From NCBI RefSeq assembly GCF_000374025.1, contig NZ_KB893177.1, positions 62,001-126,000 on the forward strand: a stretch of 64,000 nt of DNA. Direction: 5' to 3'. The notes beneath the pieces were generated by a model, which was not told where the DNA came from, searched no databases, and was given only the letters and a program-made list of their open reading frames with translations. The number at the start of each line of letters is the position of its first letter. Within the stretch, counting starts at the first letter, position 1. Shown here piece after piece: positions 21,929 to 57,782 of this stretch. A program made the translations under genes and the position numbers. The stretch is from Spirosoma panaciterrae DSM 21099. Lineage in GTDB: Bacteria > Bacteroidota > Bacteroidia > Cytophagales > Spirosomataceae.

Positions 21929-24718
21929 ATGAAAACGCAATGGATACTTGTTAGCTTGGTAGGAACTGGATTAGCCTTCACGCTATCGTCATTTCTGGGC
22001 ATTTTTGAGAAACGGGTCGACTATAACACGCAGGTTAAACCCTTGCTCAATAAAAACTGCATTGCCTGCCACGGTGGTGTCAAAAAAGCGTCGGGCTTTT
22101 CTCTTCTGTTCAAGCAGGAAGCGCTGGCCCCGGCCAAATCGGGCAAACCCGCTATTATTCCGGGCGATGCCGATGCCAGTGAAATGATTCGGCGGCTTAC
22201 CCTAACCGATCCCGATGAGCGAATGCCGCTCGACCATCCCGCTCTGAAACCTGATGAAATCGAATTGCTTCGTAACTGGATCGATCAGGGTGCCGAATGG
22301 GGCGACCACTGGGCCTATCAGCCTGTTCAGAAACCCGACGTACCCCAAATTGGCACCTTCCTGAGTCGACTGGGTATTACCGCCAACGATGAAACCGATT
22401 GGGCCAAAAACGAAATTGACCACTTTGTTCTCGCCAAACTAAATGAGAACGAGCTAAAGCCCTCTCCTGAAGCCGACCGACCTACGCTTATCCGGCGGGT
22501 ATCACTTGACCTGACGGGTTTACCACCAACCGAGAAAGAAGTAGCGGACTTTGTGAATGACCCATCGTCCAATGCGTTTGAAAAAGTGGTAGACCGACTG
22601 CTGAAATCACCTGCCTATGGCGAACGCTGGACGGGTATGTGGCTCGATCTGGCCCGTTATGCCGATACAAAAGGGTATGAGCGTGACCCCGGTCGAAAAA
22701 TCTGGCGATACCGGGACTGGCTCATCAAAGCATTTAATGCCGATAAGCCCTTCGACCAGTTCACGGTTGAACAACTCGCGGGCGATTTACTGCCGAATCG
22801 CAACGGCGATCCTGCCAACGACGATAAATTTGTAGCCACTGGTTTCCATCGGAATACGATGACCAACGACGAGGGGGGCACGCAGGATGAGGAATTTCGG
22901 ACGGCCGCGGTCATTGACCGGGTCAACACCACCTGGGATGTATTTCAGGGAACCACCTTTGGCTGCGTACAATGCCATAGCCACCCTTACGACCCATTTA
23001 CGAATGAGGAGTACTACAAATACCTGGCTTTCTTCAACAATACCCGCGACGAAGACGTAACCAGCGACACGCCTACGCTTCGCTTTCTTAAACCCGCCGA
23101 TTCGACCAAACTTGTCACACTCCAGCAATTCATTCGGCGCTCGGTAGCCAATCCACGTCAGGCGCAGGCTACAGTCGAGCAGGTCACGCATCTGATTCGG
23201 ACCATTGAACCGAAAATCAATTCACACGATTTCGACCAATACGTCAATGCGTCCTTATTGGATGCCAAGTATTTTGGATTTCAGGATAAAGGCTCCTGCC
23301 GCATCAAAAATGTTACGCTCACCGGCCGACCACGAATGCTGATTCGCTGGGGTACGAAGGCCGAAAATGCGACGGTTACTGTTCATCAGGACCGACTGGA
23401 TGGCCCCGTTCTGGCAACGATTCCAACCCCGAAACCGGGTAAAGACACGGTGCAGATGATTCCGCTCCCCGCTATTCAGGGACGCCACAACTTGTACCTG
23501 TCATTAAACAGCACCAAAAAGCCGAAGGAGTGGGTACAGATAAAATGGGTTGCCTTTGCGCCTGTTCTGCCCGGTCAGCCTCAAAATGCAACGGGTGACC
23601 AGGATAAACTCCTGACCGACCTGCTAAATGCGGATGCTGAACAGACACCAATTATGCTCGACGGCTCTGGTGACCTGTTCCGCGAAACGCATGTATTTGA
23701 ACGGGGAAACTGGCTGGTGAAAGGAAAGCTGGTAACACCCGACGTTCCGAAATCGTTGCCCAATATGGCCGATAGCCTGCCCAAAAATCGGCTGGGACTA
23801 GCTCGCTGGATGGTTAGTCGTGAGCAGCCACTGACGGCCCGAGTCGCCGTCAATCGGTTTTGGGAACAACTATTCGGTACGGGAATCGTAGAAACCGTTG
23901 AGGATATGGGTACGCAGGGCATTCCGCCTACGCACCGCGAACTGCTCGATTATCTGGCAGCCGAGTTCATGGATACCGACCATTGGAGCGTCAAGAAGTT
24001 GCTCAAAAAAATGGTAATGTCCGCTACGTATCGGCAACAATCTACAGCCTCACCCGAACTGCTGGCAAAAGATCCATACAATAAACTTCTGGCTCGCGGG
24101 CCACGGGTCAGGCTTTCTGCGGAAGCGGTACACGATCAAGCCTTAGCGGTTAGTGGCTTACTTAGTCACAAATTATATGGTCCCAGCGTGATGCCCGTTC
24201 AACCCGATGGCATCTGGCAATCACCTTACGACGGCGATACCTGGAAACAAAGTACGGGCGAAGACCTGCACCGCCGGGCCTTGTATACCTATTGGAAACG
24301 AACAGCGCCGTATCCATCGATGGTCACGTTCGACAGCCCCAGCCGCGAATTCTGCCAGCTTCGTCGCCTTCGCACCAACACGCCCCTACAGGCTTTGGTA
24401 ACCCTGAACGACCCGGTTTATATAGAGGCTGCCCAGCACTTAGCCGATTATATGCGTCAGCACGGCTCGTCGCCGAGCCAGCAGATTCAGGCGGGTTTCC
24501 GGCGGGTTATGCTCCGTGATTTGTCGCCTAAAAAACTGGCGGTTCTGGTCAATCTGTATACAACCACAGAACACTATTACCAAAAACAGCCCGGTCAGGC
24601 CGAAAACTTACTGGATCGTCCCGGCCTGGACTGCTCGACCGTCTCACCGCAATTGGCGGCCTTGACGGTTACGGCCAATACCTTACTGAATCTGGATGAG
24701 GTGATTACAAAAGAATAG
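21929..24718 (+). CDS. PSD1 and cytochrome c domain protein (DUF1549/DUF1553)
   Basis: A 929-residue exported protein. After an N-terminal hydrophobic helix comes a cytochrome c-type PSCyt1 domain with one haem site, NCIACHGG (about residue 45). The DUF1549 domain (about 140-350) holds LIRRVSLDLTGLPP and YGERWTGMWLDLARYADT; a middle linker domain follows, and DUF1553 spans about 610-880 (NRFWEQLFGTGIVETVED, LRRLRTNTPLQALVTLND). Such proteins are known from Planctomycetes and Bacteroidota and are nearly always next to a DUF1501 gene; function is unproven, perhaps redox steps in glycan breakdown. Here that partner is separated by the DUF559 element. Confidence 0.9.
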   Translation: MKTQWILVSLVGTGLAFTLSSFLGIFEKRVDYNTQVKPLLNKNCIACHGGVKKASGFSLLFKQEALAPAKSGKPAIIPGDADASEMIRRLTLTDPDERMPLDHPALKPDEIELLRNWIDQGAEWGDHWAYQPVQKPDVPQIGTFLSRLGITANDETDWAKNEIDHFVLAKLNENELKPSPEADRPTLIRRVSLDLTGLPPTEKEVADFVNDPSSNAFEKVVDRLLKSPAYGERWTGMWLDLARYADTKGYERDPGRKIWRYRDWLIKAFNADKPFDQFTVEQLAGDLLPNRNGDPANDDKFVATGFHRNTMTNDEGGTQDEEFRTAAVIDRVNTTWDVFQGTTFGCVQCHSHPYDPFTNEEYYKYLAFFNNTRDEDVTSDTPTLRFLKPADSTKLVTLQQFIRRSVANPRQAQATVEQVTHLIRTIEPKINSHDFDQYVNASLLDAKYFGFQDKGSCRIKNVTLTGRPRMLIRWGTKAENATVTVHQDRLDGPVLATIPTPKPGKDTVQMIPLPAIQGRHNLYLSLNSTKKPKEWVQIKWVAFAPVLPGQPQNATGDQDKLLTDLLNADAEQTPIMLDGSGDLFRETHVFERGNWLVKGKLVTPDVPKSLPNMADSLPKNRLGLARWMVSREQPLTARVAVNRFWEQLFGTGIVETVEDMGTQGIPPTHRELLDYLAAEFMDTDHWSVKKLLKKMVMSATYRQQSTASPELLAKDPYNKLLARGPRVRLSAEAVHDQALAVSGLLSHKLYGPSVMPVQPDGIWQSPYDGDTWKQSTGEDLHRRALYTYWKRTAPYPSMVTFDSPSREFCQLRRLRTNTPLQALVTLNDPVYIEAAQHLADYMRQHGSSPSQQIQAGFRRVMLRDLSPKKLAVLVNLYTTTEHYYQKQPGQAENLLDRPGLDCSTVSPQLAALTVTANTLLNLDEVITKE

Positions 24719-24723
24719 CATAA

Positions 24724-24761
24724 ACCCCACCCCAACCCCTCCCCTGATTTCAGGGGAGGGG
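24724..24761 (+). repeat. Left terminal repeat of the DUF559 element
   Basis: ACCCCACCCC, two bases, then a perfect 12-bp stem (CCCCTCCCCTGA with its complement) around a TT loop at 24736-24761. Being an inverted repeat without a T-run, it would form a stable RNA hairpin just after the DUF1553 stop. Confidence 0.8.
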
Positions 24762-24783
24762 CTAATTTCTACTGGTGTTTATA

Positions 24784-25146
24784 ATGAGCCAATTCATTCA
24801 TAATCGAAAAGTGATGGAGGAATTTCGGCGCGAGCTGCGCAAAAGTCCTACATCATCCGAAACATTACTCTGGGAAAGGCTACGCGGGAGTCAATTAGAA
24901 GGACGAAAATTTCGTCGTCAGCATAGCATAGGTGCGTATATACTCGATTTCTATTGTCCTGCTGAGCGATTAGCAATTGAAGTCGATGGAAGTATTCATA
25001 ACACTCCTGAAAACATAATTAATGATCAGGAACGAGATCGCACGTTAGCTCATTTACGAATCACAACTCTTCGGATTAGCAACGAAGAAATTGAGACAGA
25101 TGTAGAATCTGTACTCATTAAAATCAAGTCTTATTTTAGCAACTGA
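24784..25146 (+). CDS. DUF559 endonuclease-domain protein (Vsr-like fold)
   Basis: A 120-residue protein from ATG 24784 (an in-frame GTG lies at 24775). The DUF559 pattern is complete: SETLLWERLRGSQLEGRKF, FRRQHSIGAYILDFYCPAER, then LAIEVDGSIH, with the Asp of LDFYCP and the Glu of AIEVDG as likely catalytic residues of a PD-(D/E)XK-type fold. The C-terminus (LRISNEEIETDVESVLIKI) also fits. The family is named after resemblance to very-short-patch repair nucleases; its activity is unproven. AT-rich codon choice differs from the flanking genes, and both sides carry inverted palindromes, which suggests an acquired unit rather than a member of the surrounding operon. Confidence 0.9.
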   Translation: MSQFIHNRKVMEEFRRELRKSPTSSETLLWERLRGSQLEGRKFRRQHSIGAYILDFYCPAERLAIEVDGSIHNTPENIINDQERDRTLAHLRITTLRISNEEIETDVESVLIKIKSYFSN

Positions 25147-25161
25147 AGTACTCTTCCAATC

Positions 25162-25200
25162 CCCCTCCCCTGAAATCAGGGGAGGGGCCAGGGGTGGGGT
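25162..25200 (-). repeat. Right terminal repeat of the DUF559 element
   Basis: The same 12-bp stem palindrome (25162-25187, AA loop) followed by CCAGGGGTGGGGT, the inverted counterpart of the left end. It ends 8 bp before the DUF1501 start codon. Confidence 0.8.
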
Positions 25201-25208
25201 CAACCGAT

Positions 25209-26711
25209 ATGAACAAGCTACGAAACGAACTCCAACAGGCAGCTGCCGAAAGTGAAACCCGACGGCACTTTTTACATACCTGCTCTACAGGGCTTGGTGC
25301 GATGGCCCTAAGTTCCATTTTGGGTAGTTGCGGCTTTTTCAGTAAAGAGTCGTCGAAGAATAACGACGTTGGCGCAGCCTCGCTAAGTTCGGAACCAACC
25401 GCACCGCATCCCTCTCAGTATTTGCCTAAGGCCCAACGGGTCATTTATATCCACATGGCGGGTTCACCGAGCCAACTGGAGCTATTCGACTACAAGCCAG
25501 AACTTGCCAAATACAATGGGAAGGACTGTCCTCAGGCATTACTCGAAGGCAAGAAATTTGCCTTTATCCGGGGAACACCGAAAATGCTAGGGCCACAGGG
25601 AAAATTTGCGCAATATGGTCAGTCGGGAGCGTGGCTATCGGATTATCTACCCCATTTGCAGGGGGTTGTCGATGAGGTTTCGTTTCTGAAAGCCATGTAT
25701 ACCGATCAGTTCAACCATGCTCCTGCCCAACTGCTCATGCATACAGGCAGTGCCCGGCTGGGTCGTCCGAGCCTGGGTTCGTGGGTGACCTACGGATTAG
25801 GTACGGAGAATGATAATCTACCGGGATATATCGTACTGGCATCTGGTGGCAAACAACCCGACGCGGGTAAATCGGTCTGGGGGAGCGGCTTCCTGCCAAC
25901 GGTTTATCAGGGTGTTCAGTGCCGAACCGATGGCGACCCGGTACTCTATGCGTCGAACCCCAATGGCATGGATCGGAACATCCGCAAGCAAACCATCGAC
26001 GCCATCAGCCAGATCAATCAGCAACAGTATAATGACGTAAAAGACCCTGAAATCCTGACTCGCATTGCGCAGTACGAACTCGCTTTCCGTATGCAGATGT
26101 CGGTTCCCGATGCGATGGATATTAAAAGCGAGCCCCAGTACATTCTGGACAGCTACGGCGTCGATCCAGCCAAAGGTTCATTTGCCCGCAACTGCCTGCT
26201 GGCCCGTCGGCTTGCCGAACGAGGGGTACGGTTTATTCAGTTATTCGACTGGGGCTGGGATACGCATGGCACCAGTGCCGACGGAGCCATCGAAATCGGA
26301 CTTCGAAACAAATGCAAGGAATCGGACCAGGCAGTAGCTGCCCTTCTGAAAGACCTTAAACAGCGTGGGCTGTTAGACGATACCCTGGTGGTTTGGGGCG
26401 GAGAATTTGGCCGAACACCCATGCAGGAAAACCGGGATGGACAAACGCTACCGTTTATGGGCCGCGACCATCACCTCGAAGCGTTTACGGTCTGGATGGC
26501 CGGGGGTGGCGTAAAACAAGGATTTTCGTACGGCGAAACTGACGACATTGGCTATTATGGCGTGAAAGATAAAACTCACATTCACGACCTTCAGGCTACG
26601 ATCCTACACCTGCTTGGTTTCGATCACACCAAATTAACCTATCAGTTTCAGGGCCGCCCCTTCCGCCTGACCGATGTAGCCGGGAAAGTAATTAAACCAG
26701 TACTAGCCTGA
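25209..26711 (+). CDS. DUF1501 family protein (sulfatase-like fold, probable Tat substrate)
   Basis: A 500-residue protein starting at ATG 25209 (an earlier GTG would lie inside the palindrome). The N-terminus has a twin-arginine-like signal, ETRRHFLHTCSTGLGAMALS, with a following Cys (GSCGF) that could be lipidated. The DUF1501 body carries RVIYIHMAGSPSQLELFDYKP, FNHAPAQLLMHTG, FDWGWDTHG and VVWGGEFGRTPMQEN, the conserved alkaline-phosphatase-like positions. DUF1501 proteins are encoded next to PSD1/DUF1553 proteins; the pair probably forms one extracytoplasmic system of unknown role. A family-B hairpin begins 3 bp after the stop. Confidence 0.9.
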   Translation: MNKLRNELQQAAAESETRRHFLHTCSTGLGAMALSSILGSCGFFSKESSKNNDVGAASLSSEPTAPHPSQYLPKAQRVIYIHMAGSPSQLELFDYKPELAKYNGKDCPQALLEGKKFAFIRGTPKMLGPQGKFAQYGQSGAWLSDYLPHLQGVVDEVSFLKAMYTDQFNHAPAQLLMHTGSARLGRPSLGSWVTYGLGTENDNLPGYIVLASGGKQPDAGKSVWGSGFLPTVYQGVQCRTDGDPVLYASNPNGMDRNIRKQTIDAISQINQQQYNDVKDPEILTRIAQYELAFRMQMSVPDAMDIKSEPQYILDSYGVDPAKGSFARNCLLARRLAERGVRFIQLFDWGWDTHGTSADGAIEIGLRNKCKESDQAVAALLKDLKQRGLLDDTLVVWGGEFGRTPMQENRDGQTLPFMGRDHHLEAFTVWMAGGGVKQGFSYGETDDIGYYGVKDKTHIHDLQATILHLLGFDHTKLTYQFQGRPFRLTDVAGKVIKPVLA

Positions 26712-56438: not shown

Positions 56439-57782
56439 ATGTTCAAGAAAATTCTTATCGCCAACCGGGGGGAAATCGCTCTGCGAATTATCCGTACCTG
56501 CCGCGAAATGGGCATTAAAACGGTGGCCGTCTTTTCAACGGCCGACCGCGATAGTTTACACGTACGTTTTGCCGATGAGGCTGTCTGTATTGGTCCGCCA
56601 GTAAGCAAACAGTCGTATCTCAGCATTCCTAATATTATTTCAGCAGCCGAAGTAACTGGGGCCGATGCCATCCATCCAGGCTACGGCTTTTTGTCGGAAA
56701 ACGCCGAATTCTCACAAATCTGCGCCGATTATGGCATTAAGTTTATCGGTGCCACTGCTGATCAGATCAACAGCATGGGCGATAAAGCCACGGCCAAAGC
56801 GACCATGAGAGCGGCTGGTGTTCCGGTGATTCCCGGTTCAGAAGGTCTGCTCGACTCCATCGAACAAGGCAAAAAACTGTCGGCCGAAATGGGTTATCCG
56901 GTTATTGTCAAAGCTACGGCTGGTGGCGGTGGTCGTGGTATGCGAATTATCCGATCAGAAGCCGATTTTGAAAAAGCCTGGCATGATGCCCGTACTGAAG
57001 CGGGAGCCGCTTTTGGTAATGACGGTCTGTATCTGGAAAAATTCGTTGAAGAGCCGCGCCACATCGAAATTCAGATTGTGGGCGATCAATACGGAAAAGT
57101 CTGTCATCTTTCGGAACGCGATTGCTCCATTCAGCGTCGTCACCAAAAGCTGGTCGAAGAAACCCCCTCCCCTATCGTTTCCGACGAACTCCGGCAACAA
57201 ATGGGTGAAGCCGCCATTAAGGGTGCACAGGCCATTGGCTACGAAGGAGCTGGAACCATCGAGTTTCTGGTCGATAAACACGGGAAGTTTTATTTCATGG
57301 AAATGAACACCCGAATTCAGGTGGAACACCCAATTACGGAAGAGGTAACCGACTTCGACCTGATCAAAGAGCAGATCAAGGTGGCTGCCGGTACTGAAAT
57401 TTCAGGCCGGAACTATACGCCGAAGCTGTATGCGATGGAATGCCGTATCAATGCGGAAGACCCTGCCAATGGTTTCCGCCCTTCGCCTGGTAAGATCACG
57501 AACCTGCATTTCCCAGGTGGGCACGGTGTCCGAATCGACAGCCACGTGTACAGTGGCTACACCATTCCGCCCAACTACGACTCGATGATTGCAAAACTGA
57601 TCGTTTCAGGCCAGTCGCGGGAAGAAGTGATTACCCGGATGAAACGGGCCTTGCAGGAGTTTGTGATCGAAGGTATCAAAACAACGATTCCGTTCCATAT
57701 CAAGCTGATGGACGACCCCGGATTCCAGTCGGGTAAATTCACGACGGCTTTCCTCGAAACATTTGATTTCAGTAAGCTGTAA
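56439..57782 (+). CDS. accC: Acetyl-CoA carboxylase, biotin carboxylase subunit
   Basis: A 447-residue ATP-grasp enzyme that carboxylates the biotin of AccB. The N-terminal domain starts [37 protein letters not shown] and [15 protein letters not shown] follow; the ATP lid is [35 protein letters not shown] holds the catalytic Glu and Arg; the C-terminal domain is [15 protein letters not shown]. Length matches the family. It is the last gene of the operon and ends in a strong terminator. Confidence 0.97.

Follow-up and report, generated by a model that had tools for sequence, protein, structure and literature searches.

Background

The repeats known as BoxC, PIT or TM were noted in Escherichia coli in the 1990s, and the G/C-rich form of this triplex repeat has been recorded in more than 260 genomes (PMC4666352). 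The E. coli motif folds as a triplex in vitro; in the sections of the survey by Holder et al. (2015; PMC4666352) used here, a stable triplex in vivo is reported as unsupported, mobility genes are reported as absent beside the E. coli copies, and no settled function is given. Class II intrastrand-triplex motifs are defined there by the order pyrimidine arm, purine arm and third strand, by G.GC and A/T.AT triplets, and by a stem of 6-15 nt. The repeats described below share with them, as far as that part of the source goes, the class II order, the A and B linker types and the occurrence as inverted pairs; unlike them, these repeats enclose a nuclease gene, can occur in frame within proteins and vary by nuclease clade. 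In REP/RAYT systems, described in part in PMC3733652, a resident nuclease gene is likewise found between inverted palindromes and related gene-less copies are dispersed, but the enzyme is an HUH tyrosine nuclease rather than a DUF559 protein of the EDxHD/PD-(D/E)XK type, and the palindrome carries a GTAG/CGTC tag rather than a mirror third strand.

Free-standing homing genes offer a third comparison. I-Bth0305I is a multi-domain protein in the portion of PMC3943268 cited here, whereas the DUF559 protein has a single domain of about 120 aa; the two match in profile and fold. As with homing genes, the DUF559 cassette is site-conserved, sporadic and, consistent with a paralogue pattern described below, copied into the homologous site; in contrast to them, it has palindromic ends and many unrelated sites, and no intron or intein was found. 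Rickettsia palindromic elements, like the DUF559 cassettes, are selfish palindromic sequences translated in frame as part of host proteins, but they are not known to carry a nuclease gene. Among open-access papers, the 14 that mention DUF559 and the 19 that mention intrastrand triplexes do not overlap, and none of those judged by title and the beginning of the abstract linked DUF559 to intrastrand triplex repeats or described embedded cassettes.

Here we analyse a locus in 64,000 nucleotides of Spirosoma panaciterrae DSM 21099 (contig NZ_KB893177.1, positions 62,001 to 126,000), a stretch referred to as the window, to which all coordinates below refer unless another genome is named. We consider it quite likely that the locus represents a widespread, nuclease-driven mobile element, in which a DUF559 nuclease of the EDxHD/PD-(D/E)XK type is bounded by its cognate triplex repeat.

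Organization of the unit

The unit occupies positions 24724-25200 and consists of a DUF559 gene between two inverted repeats of 38 and 39 nt. The gene (24775..25146, forward strand) matches PF04480 at 8e-28; its open frame starts with GTG at 24775, an in-frame ATG at 24784 is the likelier start, and the stop codon ends at 25146. The left end (24724..24761, reverse strand) comprises the tail ACCCCACCCC at 24724-24733, a linker at 24734-24735 and a stem-loop at 24736-24761. The right end (25162..25200, forward strand) is the same motif inverted, with the stem-loop at 25162-25187, the linker at 25188-25190 and the tail GGGGTGGGGT at 25191-25200. On the G strand both repeats therefore read CCCCTCCCCTGAAATCAGGGGAGGGG, then a linker, which is TT on the left (type A) and CCA on the right (type B), and then GGGGTGGGGT. 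The inverted arms (24725-24761 against 25162-25198) are 86% complementary, and each contains a perfect 12-bp palindrome. When up to three mismatches were allowed, the palindrome pattern occurred twice in the 64-kb window and in none of 100 shuffled sequences.

The unit lies between the genes of a host pair, both on the forward strand: one for a DUF1549/DUF1553 protein to the left and outside the unit (21929..24718) and one for a DUF1501 protein to the right (25209..26711). The mechanical open reading frame of the latter opens at 25194, inside the repeat tail; ATG 25209, which matches the starts of the orthologues, is its likely start. The G+C content of the DUF559 gene is 40%, against 53% in both neighbours. 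The initial annotation, which described an AT-rich nuclease gene bounded by inverted palindromes, was accurate on these points. No gene other than DUF559 lies between the ends. A search of the open reading frames together with a domain scan found no known transposase gene in the unit, and no gene for an HUH tyrosine (Y1) transposase, the one gene present matching PF04480 and, below its cut-off, MTES_1575. Among the immediate neighbours, which encode the DUF1553 and DUF1501 proteins, there is no cytosine methylase. Rfam gave nothing significant near the unit, its single match having an E-value of 0.83 and 15.2 bits against a gathering score of 65. The comparative data given below support the view of a discrete one-gene unit.

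Structure of the ends

In both repeats the tail mirrors the stem arm at 10 of 10 positions, with G opposite G and A opposite T. By arm order and triplets both ends belong to class II, with 10/10 triplets each, and judged from their letters they are perfect 10-triplet intrastrand-triplex motifs of the BoxC/PIT/TM repeat class. The initial annotation had recognized a GC-rich palindrome with a ACCCCACCCC "tip"; the palindrome is indeed present, and the supposed tip corresponds to the third strand of this known motif. A strict class II triplex finder reported exactly these two motifs in the 64 kb; 10 first-order Markov sequences yielded none. Another CCCCTCCCC occurs in the window at 57164 and was unreported by the finder. 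Folded as single strands, with only the hairpin considered, the left-end DNA gave -13.7 kcal/mol (z -4.8) and the right-end DNA -14.3 kcal/mol (z -3.3), and both hairpins were better than at least 199 of 200 shuffles. The foot of the window palindrome is ACCCC, and no tag of the GTAG/CGTC kind, as given in part of PMC3733652, was found.

The mirror rule extends to other copies. From 102 hairpins, 57 distinct motifs remained when at least five G in the first 14 tail bases were required and near-duplicates were dropped; for these the mean mirror score of arm against tail was 6.32, compared with 4.83 (sd 0.136) when the tails were swapped (z 11). A plain direct repeat in place of the mirror performed less well on the same motif set (z 3.5). 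A G-quadruplex was set aside by eye as the fold shared by the ends: several families, among them L016, P4 and those of Flavobacterium, are poor in G tracts yet obey the mirror rule. Dispersed repeats (L004-L008) have the arm GGGGAGAGG and the tail GGGGTGAGG, and the window has the arm GGGGAGGGG and the tail GGGGTGGGG; arm and tail thus change together, and the dispersed repeats retain the mirror.

A variant architecture was seen at alphaproteobacterial ends (L050, L054, L055, L060, L077, L078), where a small hairpin stands between the stem arm and the third strand; in most of these copies the third strand is directed toward the gene.

The encoded nuclease

Six residues of catalytic type (E29, D58, E69, D71, H75 and D84) are conserved in 140-141 of 141 sequences, and each of the 51 embedded copies has all six, so the DUF559 domain is, as far as residue conservation can tell, very likely an active enzyme. 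The AlphaFold (AF2) model of the window protein has a pLDDT of 87.5. A Foldseek search with this model placed the gonococcal DUF559 structure 3hrl at rank 1, as the sole match below an E-value of 0.001, followed by the homing endonuclease I-Bth0305I (3r3p; E 0.002, probability 1.00, TM 0.61 by query); Vsr, whose fold is related, appeared at rank 13 (E 0.2, TM 0.52 by query). The DUF559 sequence profile also matches 3r3p at 1e-6, and the solved I-Bth0305I chain differs at several of the six conserved DUF559 columns. By profile and predicted fold, I-Bth0305I is the nearest characterised relative that we found.

PADLOC gave weak matches to DpdF, to a methyl-directed restriction enzyme and to a homing endonuclease. 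The Caulobacter DUF559 protein VsrA has been proposed as a VSP repair enzyme in the part of PMC12907096 cited here. The window gene differs from Vsr in having no methylase beside it. A Vsr-like gene of Spirosoma genome G007 (L168) was seen by eye to lie near a methylase-like gene, and it has no flanking repeat above controls.

The junction in other Spirosoma genomes

Searching for the DUF1553/DUF1501 junction gave matches in 35 of 36 genomes of the genus, and 30 orthologous loci were read. Nine junctions are occupied by the unit and 21 are without it, which bears out the assumption of the initial annotation that the two host genes are normally adjacent and supplies the empty sites in relatives that it had proposed to look for. 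In the unoccupied junctions the intergenic gap ranges from -1 to 177 bp; it is at most 24 bp in 14 of them and 41-177 bp in the other seven, some of which have other short inserts. Possible relics were noted at two empty junctions: that of G007 starts with TACCCC and that of G019 has degenerate repeats. No target-site duplication was evident by eye at the 30 junctions.

The nine junction DUF559 proteins form one clade (support 97/89), no member of which is found at another site in the genus; the window copy therefore behaves like a resident, site-conserved lineage. Mapping occupation on the tree of the flanks requires five changes, three of them forced by well-supported branches, so an ancestral insertion followed by losses is possible. 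The junction lineage is either old, with several losses, or was gained repeatedly at one site.

At five junctions without the DUF559 unit (L133, L139, L142, L144 and L146), another short palindrome-like insert was seen by eye between the DUF1553 and DUF1501 genes, and the spacer therefore seems to receive repeats often.

Association of DUF559 genes with flanking repeats

The genus and class genome sets are samples, and the 68 cross-phylum loci or contigs were chosen by likeness to the window protein. In 53 of these 68 the inverted-repeat score exceeded the 99th percentile of 2447 offset controls, and in 35 it exceeded every control; the other 15 had no flanking repeat above the 99th percentile. 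DUF559 genes elsewhere are flanked by matching inverted repeats far more often than chance, a check that had been suggested from the window alone. Among the class loci, 22 of 30 reached or exceeded the 99th percentile in a comparison with 530 controls. Strict triplex motifs lie within 250 bp of the gene at 28/30 class, 21/26 genus and 23/68 cross-phylum loci (21/68 in a slightly stricter first count of the last set). Motif density near the gene is 3.73 per kb in the class, 3.46 in the genus and 2.03 in the cross-phylum set, and far from it 0.185, 0 and 0.115, respectively. One broad repeat pattern was present in 38 of 396 class genomes, and DUF559 was found in 29 of these 38 against 163 of the 358 without the pattern (p = 0.0003, a value uncorrected for relatedness).

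Within the genus, 29 DUF559 loci were fetched and, one being cut by a contig end, 28 were scored. Flanking inverted repeats exceeded all 224 controls at 21 of the 28, including one (L089) whose repeat is not of the C-tract kind. The seven loci below controls include the Vsr-like gene of G007, a weak unrelated match (L109), a stop-bearing copy (L100) and a fragment (L108). The flanking repeat differs by DUF559 clade. Four genomes (G003, G012, G015 and G021) contain scored genes from two clades, and each of these genes has the repeat of its own clade. With flank copies counted, each of the nine genomes that have the junction gene contains 3-18 window-type palindrome sites, and the remaining 27 contain 0-2. 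Counts that leave out the flank copies are based on listed places, which for G021 and G032 comprise only part of the sites. The window's own genome has 11 such sites, mostly variants. In phylogenetically independent pairs, the window-type repeat (at least three copies) and the junction gene agree in 3 of 3, a number too small for significance; if a single copy is made the threshold, agreement falls to 1 or 2 of the 3 pairs.

Other repeat families follow their genes less closely. P4 repeats are numerous in three genomes that have no PF04480 match (75 in G013, 41 in G016 and 21 in G035); they form inverted pairs there with no gene between them, and other insertions are nested inside some of these pairs. 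P3 repeats are abundant without the matching DUF559 clade in G008 (26) and G012 (22). A strict dependence of every repeat family on its nuclease was rejected on these counts. The initial annotation had held that palindromes equally common without a DUF559 gene, together with a lack of empty sites in close relatives, would speak against a mobile unit; window-type repeats are commoner in genomes with the junction gene, and P4 and some P3 repeats are abundant in genomes without the matching clade.

The nested insertions seen in P4 pairs of G013 (L159-L163) have ends like CAGGGCTGTTAAGTTCT and include a further G/C-rich repeat pair, as though one element were targeting the other.

Insertions in housekeeping proteins

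Many DUF559 domains lie within longer open frames. Among the matches listed in the class sample (150), 84 are in open frames of at least 300 aa and 72 in frames of at least 600 aa, and 22 of the 66 stop-free cross-phylum loci are in such open frames. A Pfam scan of 47 open frames (two loci being represented twice; cut-off 1e-5) identified as in-frame hosts leucyl-tRNA synthetase (LeuRS, in two places), MetH (in several), an IleRS-type synthetase, methylmalonyl-CoA mutase (MCM), RecG, RecJ and MutS, as well as a UvrD-type helicase, an HrpA-type helicase (three Gallionellaceae contigs), HsdR, a SpoIIE phosphatase and a CoA-transferase. No intein (Hint) self-splicing domain was found in the 47 frames at the same cut-off. 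The cassettes are in frame with their repeats included, and translation of the palindromes gives peptides such as PTPGPSPLGRG and TPLPNGEGLGVG. In a few proteins the domain stands near one end of the frame rather than inside it: a GATase_5 protein (L254/L287), a LeuRS-type protein (L266), a pseudouridine synthase (L285) and an SpvB/FG-GAP protein (L271). In Sphingobacteria-type contigs the DUF559 frame is continuous with histidine biosynthesis proteins (L023, L026, L030) and a class-I glutamine amidotransferase (L042), near one end, and since it runs into these proteins the cassette seems to sit at the start of the genes.

Comparison with uninterrupted orthologues delimits the insertions. One MetH loop has 202 aa with the cassette in G012 and 36-57 aa in 29 of 29 other genomes read. 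The MCM linker of G012 is 212 aa long; in the 12 further genomes where motifs allowed a measurement it spans 56-85 aa (17 loci being unmeasurable). One of these 12, G006 (L223), has a gene-less inverted repeat pair in frame in the MCM linker where G012 has the full cassette. Most embedded copies fall in one clade of 50 rows (SH-aLRT 99), the exceptions being the HrpA, HisF/HisH, HsdR and L271 copies. On the DUF559 tree, which has 141 rows, few columns and many unresolved forks, the site labels require 16 changes, where shuffled labels take 41 and the minimum is 10.

Gain, loss and copying

In Flavobacterium, MetH has two alternative sites, one in the activation domain and one in the B12 domain. 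The activation-domain site is occupied and the B12 site empty in L033, L035, L049, L056, L057 and L058, and the reverse holds in L043. Both sites are occupied in L037, and L061 has inserts at both, one of them out of frame. In L046, L052 and L053 the B12 site, the only one measured, is occupied; in L063 it is occupied too, and the other site has only the left repeat, the nuclease and the right end being absent. One clade of 12 contains closely related Flavobacterium copies from the two sites, intermingled. Uninterrupted orthologues, alternative sites in one gene and a single-repeat site together lead to the conclusion that gain and loss affect the cassette as a whole, which we regard as well supported. 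The discrete one-gene unit postulated by the initial annotation is supported by the empty sites, the uninterrupted orthologues and the matching repeats elsewhere. The simplest version of its mobile-unit reading has against it the single-site lineage of the window copy and the P3 and P4 repeats that abound without the matching clade, and the reading as a whole is supported in part. Its REP/RAYT analogy fits, since window-type repeats are dispersed in genomes with the gene; the unit has neither an HUH transposase nor a GTAG/CGTC tag.

In genome G042, two diverged SpoIIE-type genes have cassettes at the same site, 97% identical in amino acids. At the DNA level the two cassettes show 18 differences in 409 positions. 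The stretch of 62 host bases that follows the repeat shows 12, and BLAST aligns nothing beyond it; for one copy, the contig end truncates the host sequence on the left. Other copies compared within genomes (6 of 10 in G042, 6 of 11 in G089, 4 of 11 in G125 and 4 of 7 in G091) are 38-57% identical, except for two neighbouring pairs.

These pairs are DUF559 cassettes lying side by side, with protein identities of 95% (L276, in G089) and 85% (L284, in G091), and are local duplications. The B12-site cassette of L061 (Flavobacterium covae) has lost its reading frame, which may be a matter of unstable C/G runs or of sequencing.

Proposed mechanism and alternatives

We propose, as the likely driving force, that the nuclease brings about gain and loss by cutting the triplex ends. 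The binding, cutting and insertion chemistry that we infer would begin with recognition by the nuclease of its own repeat, probably with the G-rich strand single-stranded and folded as a hairpin plus third strand. Cutting would take place at the foot of the repeat, at the ACCCC/GGGGT ends, and repair of the break would copy or join the cassette, or a gene-less end pair, into a new or homologous site. Nuclease-bearing copies would then behave in a homing-like manner, with the same site used in alleles and paralogues, frequent loss and an occasional new site, and gene-less repeats would spread in a REP-like manner; ends that can be read through in frame would permit residence in housekeeping proteins. 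This is apparently a large, undescribed kind of element, part REP-like and part homing-like. On a broader scale the balance tips slightly toward DUF559 being, across bacteria in general, the nuclease dedicated to mobilising the BoxC/PIT triplex repeats, and the elements an undescribed selfish class that inserts into essential proteins in frame without splicing and leaves a repeat-coded peptide scar on loss.

The nuclease might instead be cargo, with another enzyme, such as an HUH RAYT or an IS transposase, mobilising the repeats. Paired gene-less copies exist, and P4 and some P3 repeats abound without the matching clade or any DUF559 match, as cargo status would allow; we nevertheless judge this unlikely, given that the same gene family, with its catalytic residues conserved, lies between such ends in many phyla, that genus repeats differ by DUF559 clade, and that no other gene lies between the window ends. 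The relation to I-Bth0305I raises another reading, namely that DUF559 is a homing gene cutting the empty host gene, with the palindromes serving only as ordinary, translation-friendly linkers or as terminators, and their dispersal unrelated. The recurrence of cassettes at the same MetH and LeuRS sites, the copying between paralogues and the site-specific junction lineage of the genus all suit this reading, but it does not account for the similar ends of intergenic copies in many phyla, for the co-occurrence of window-type repeats with the gene or for the presence of closely related Flavobacterium copies at two MetH sites, and it appears quite unlikely.

A role of DUF559 as a host repair or defence nuclease of the VSP type, the repeats being incidental regulatory hairpins, finds some encouragement in the VsrA proposal for Caulobacter (the cited part of PMC12907096) and in the weak PADLOC matches. 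It is very improbable in view of the presence and absence of the unit at the junction, the in-frame residence in unrelated enzymes and a motif density about 18-fold or more above background. Hairpins are common between bacterial genes, and two GC-rich ones might flank a gene by chance or mere inheritance; this is effectively refuted by the controls, as the window's only two motifs in 64 kb are both here, shuffled and Markov sequences gave none, and the association of motif and DUF559 recurs in many lineages. On the preferred reading of a nuclease-driven cassette, the BoxC/PIT/TM repeats, which were without a known enzyme, are now linked to a specific, testable nuclease family, and triplex recognition by a nuclease becomes directly testable. 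LeuRS, IleRS, MutS and MetH of many Bacteroidota contain nuclease cassettes in frame, which bears on annotation, protein evolution and genome instability.

The ycjD locus of Escherichia coli

Motif no. 9 of the E. coli survey by Holder et al. (1,351,204-1,351,239; listed in the part of PMC4666352 used here) is the repeat adjoining ycjD, which is annotated as DUF559. The ycjD region, at a coverage of at least 80%, is present in 3362 of 5426 E. coli genomes; as a clean empty site within the species it was rejected, since both gene-less strains examined have an efflux gene cluster beside fabI. In the K-12 locus (L154), a type A BoxC copy at 2705-2740 and a truncated, type B-like copy at about 2896-2919 both lie 3' of ycjD, and the end of the YcjD protein (RRSPSP, then the stop) is encoded by the repeat.
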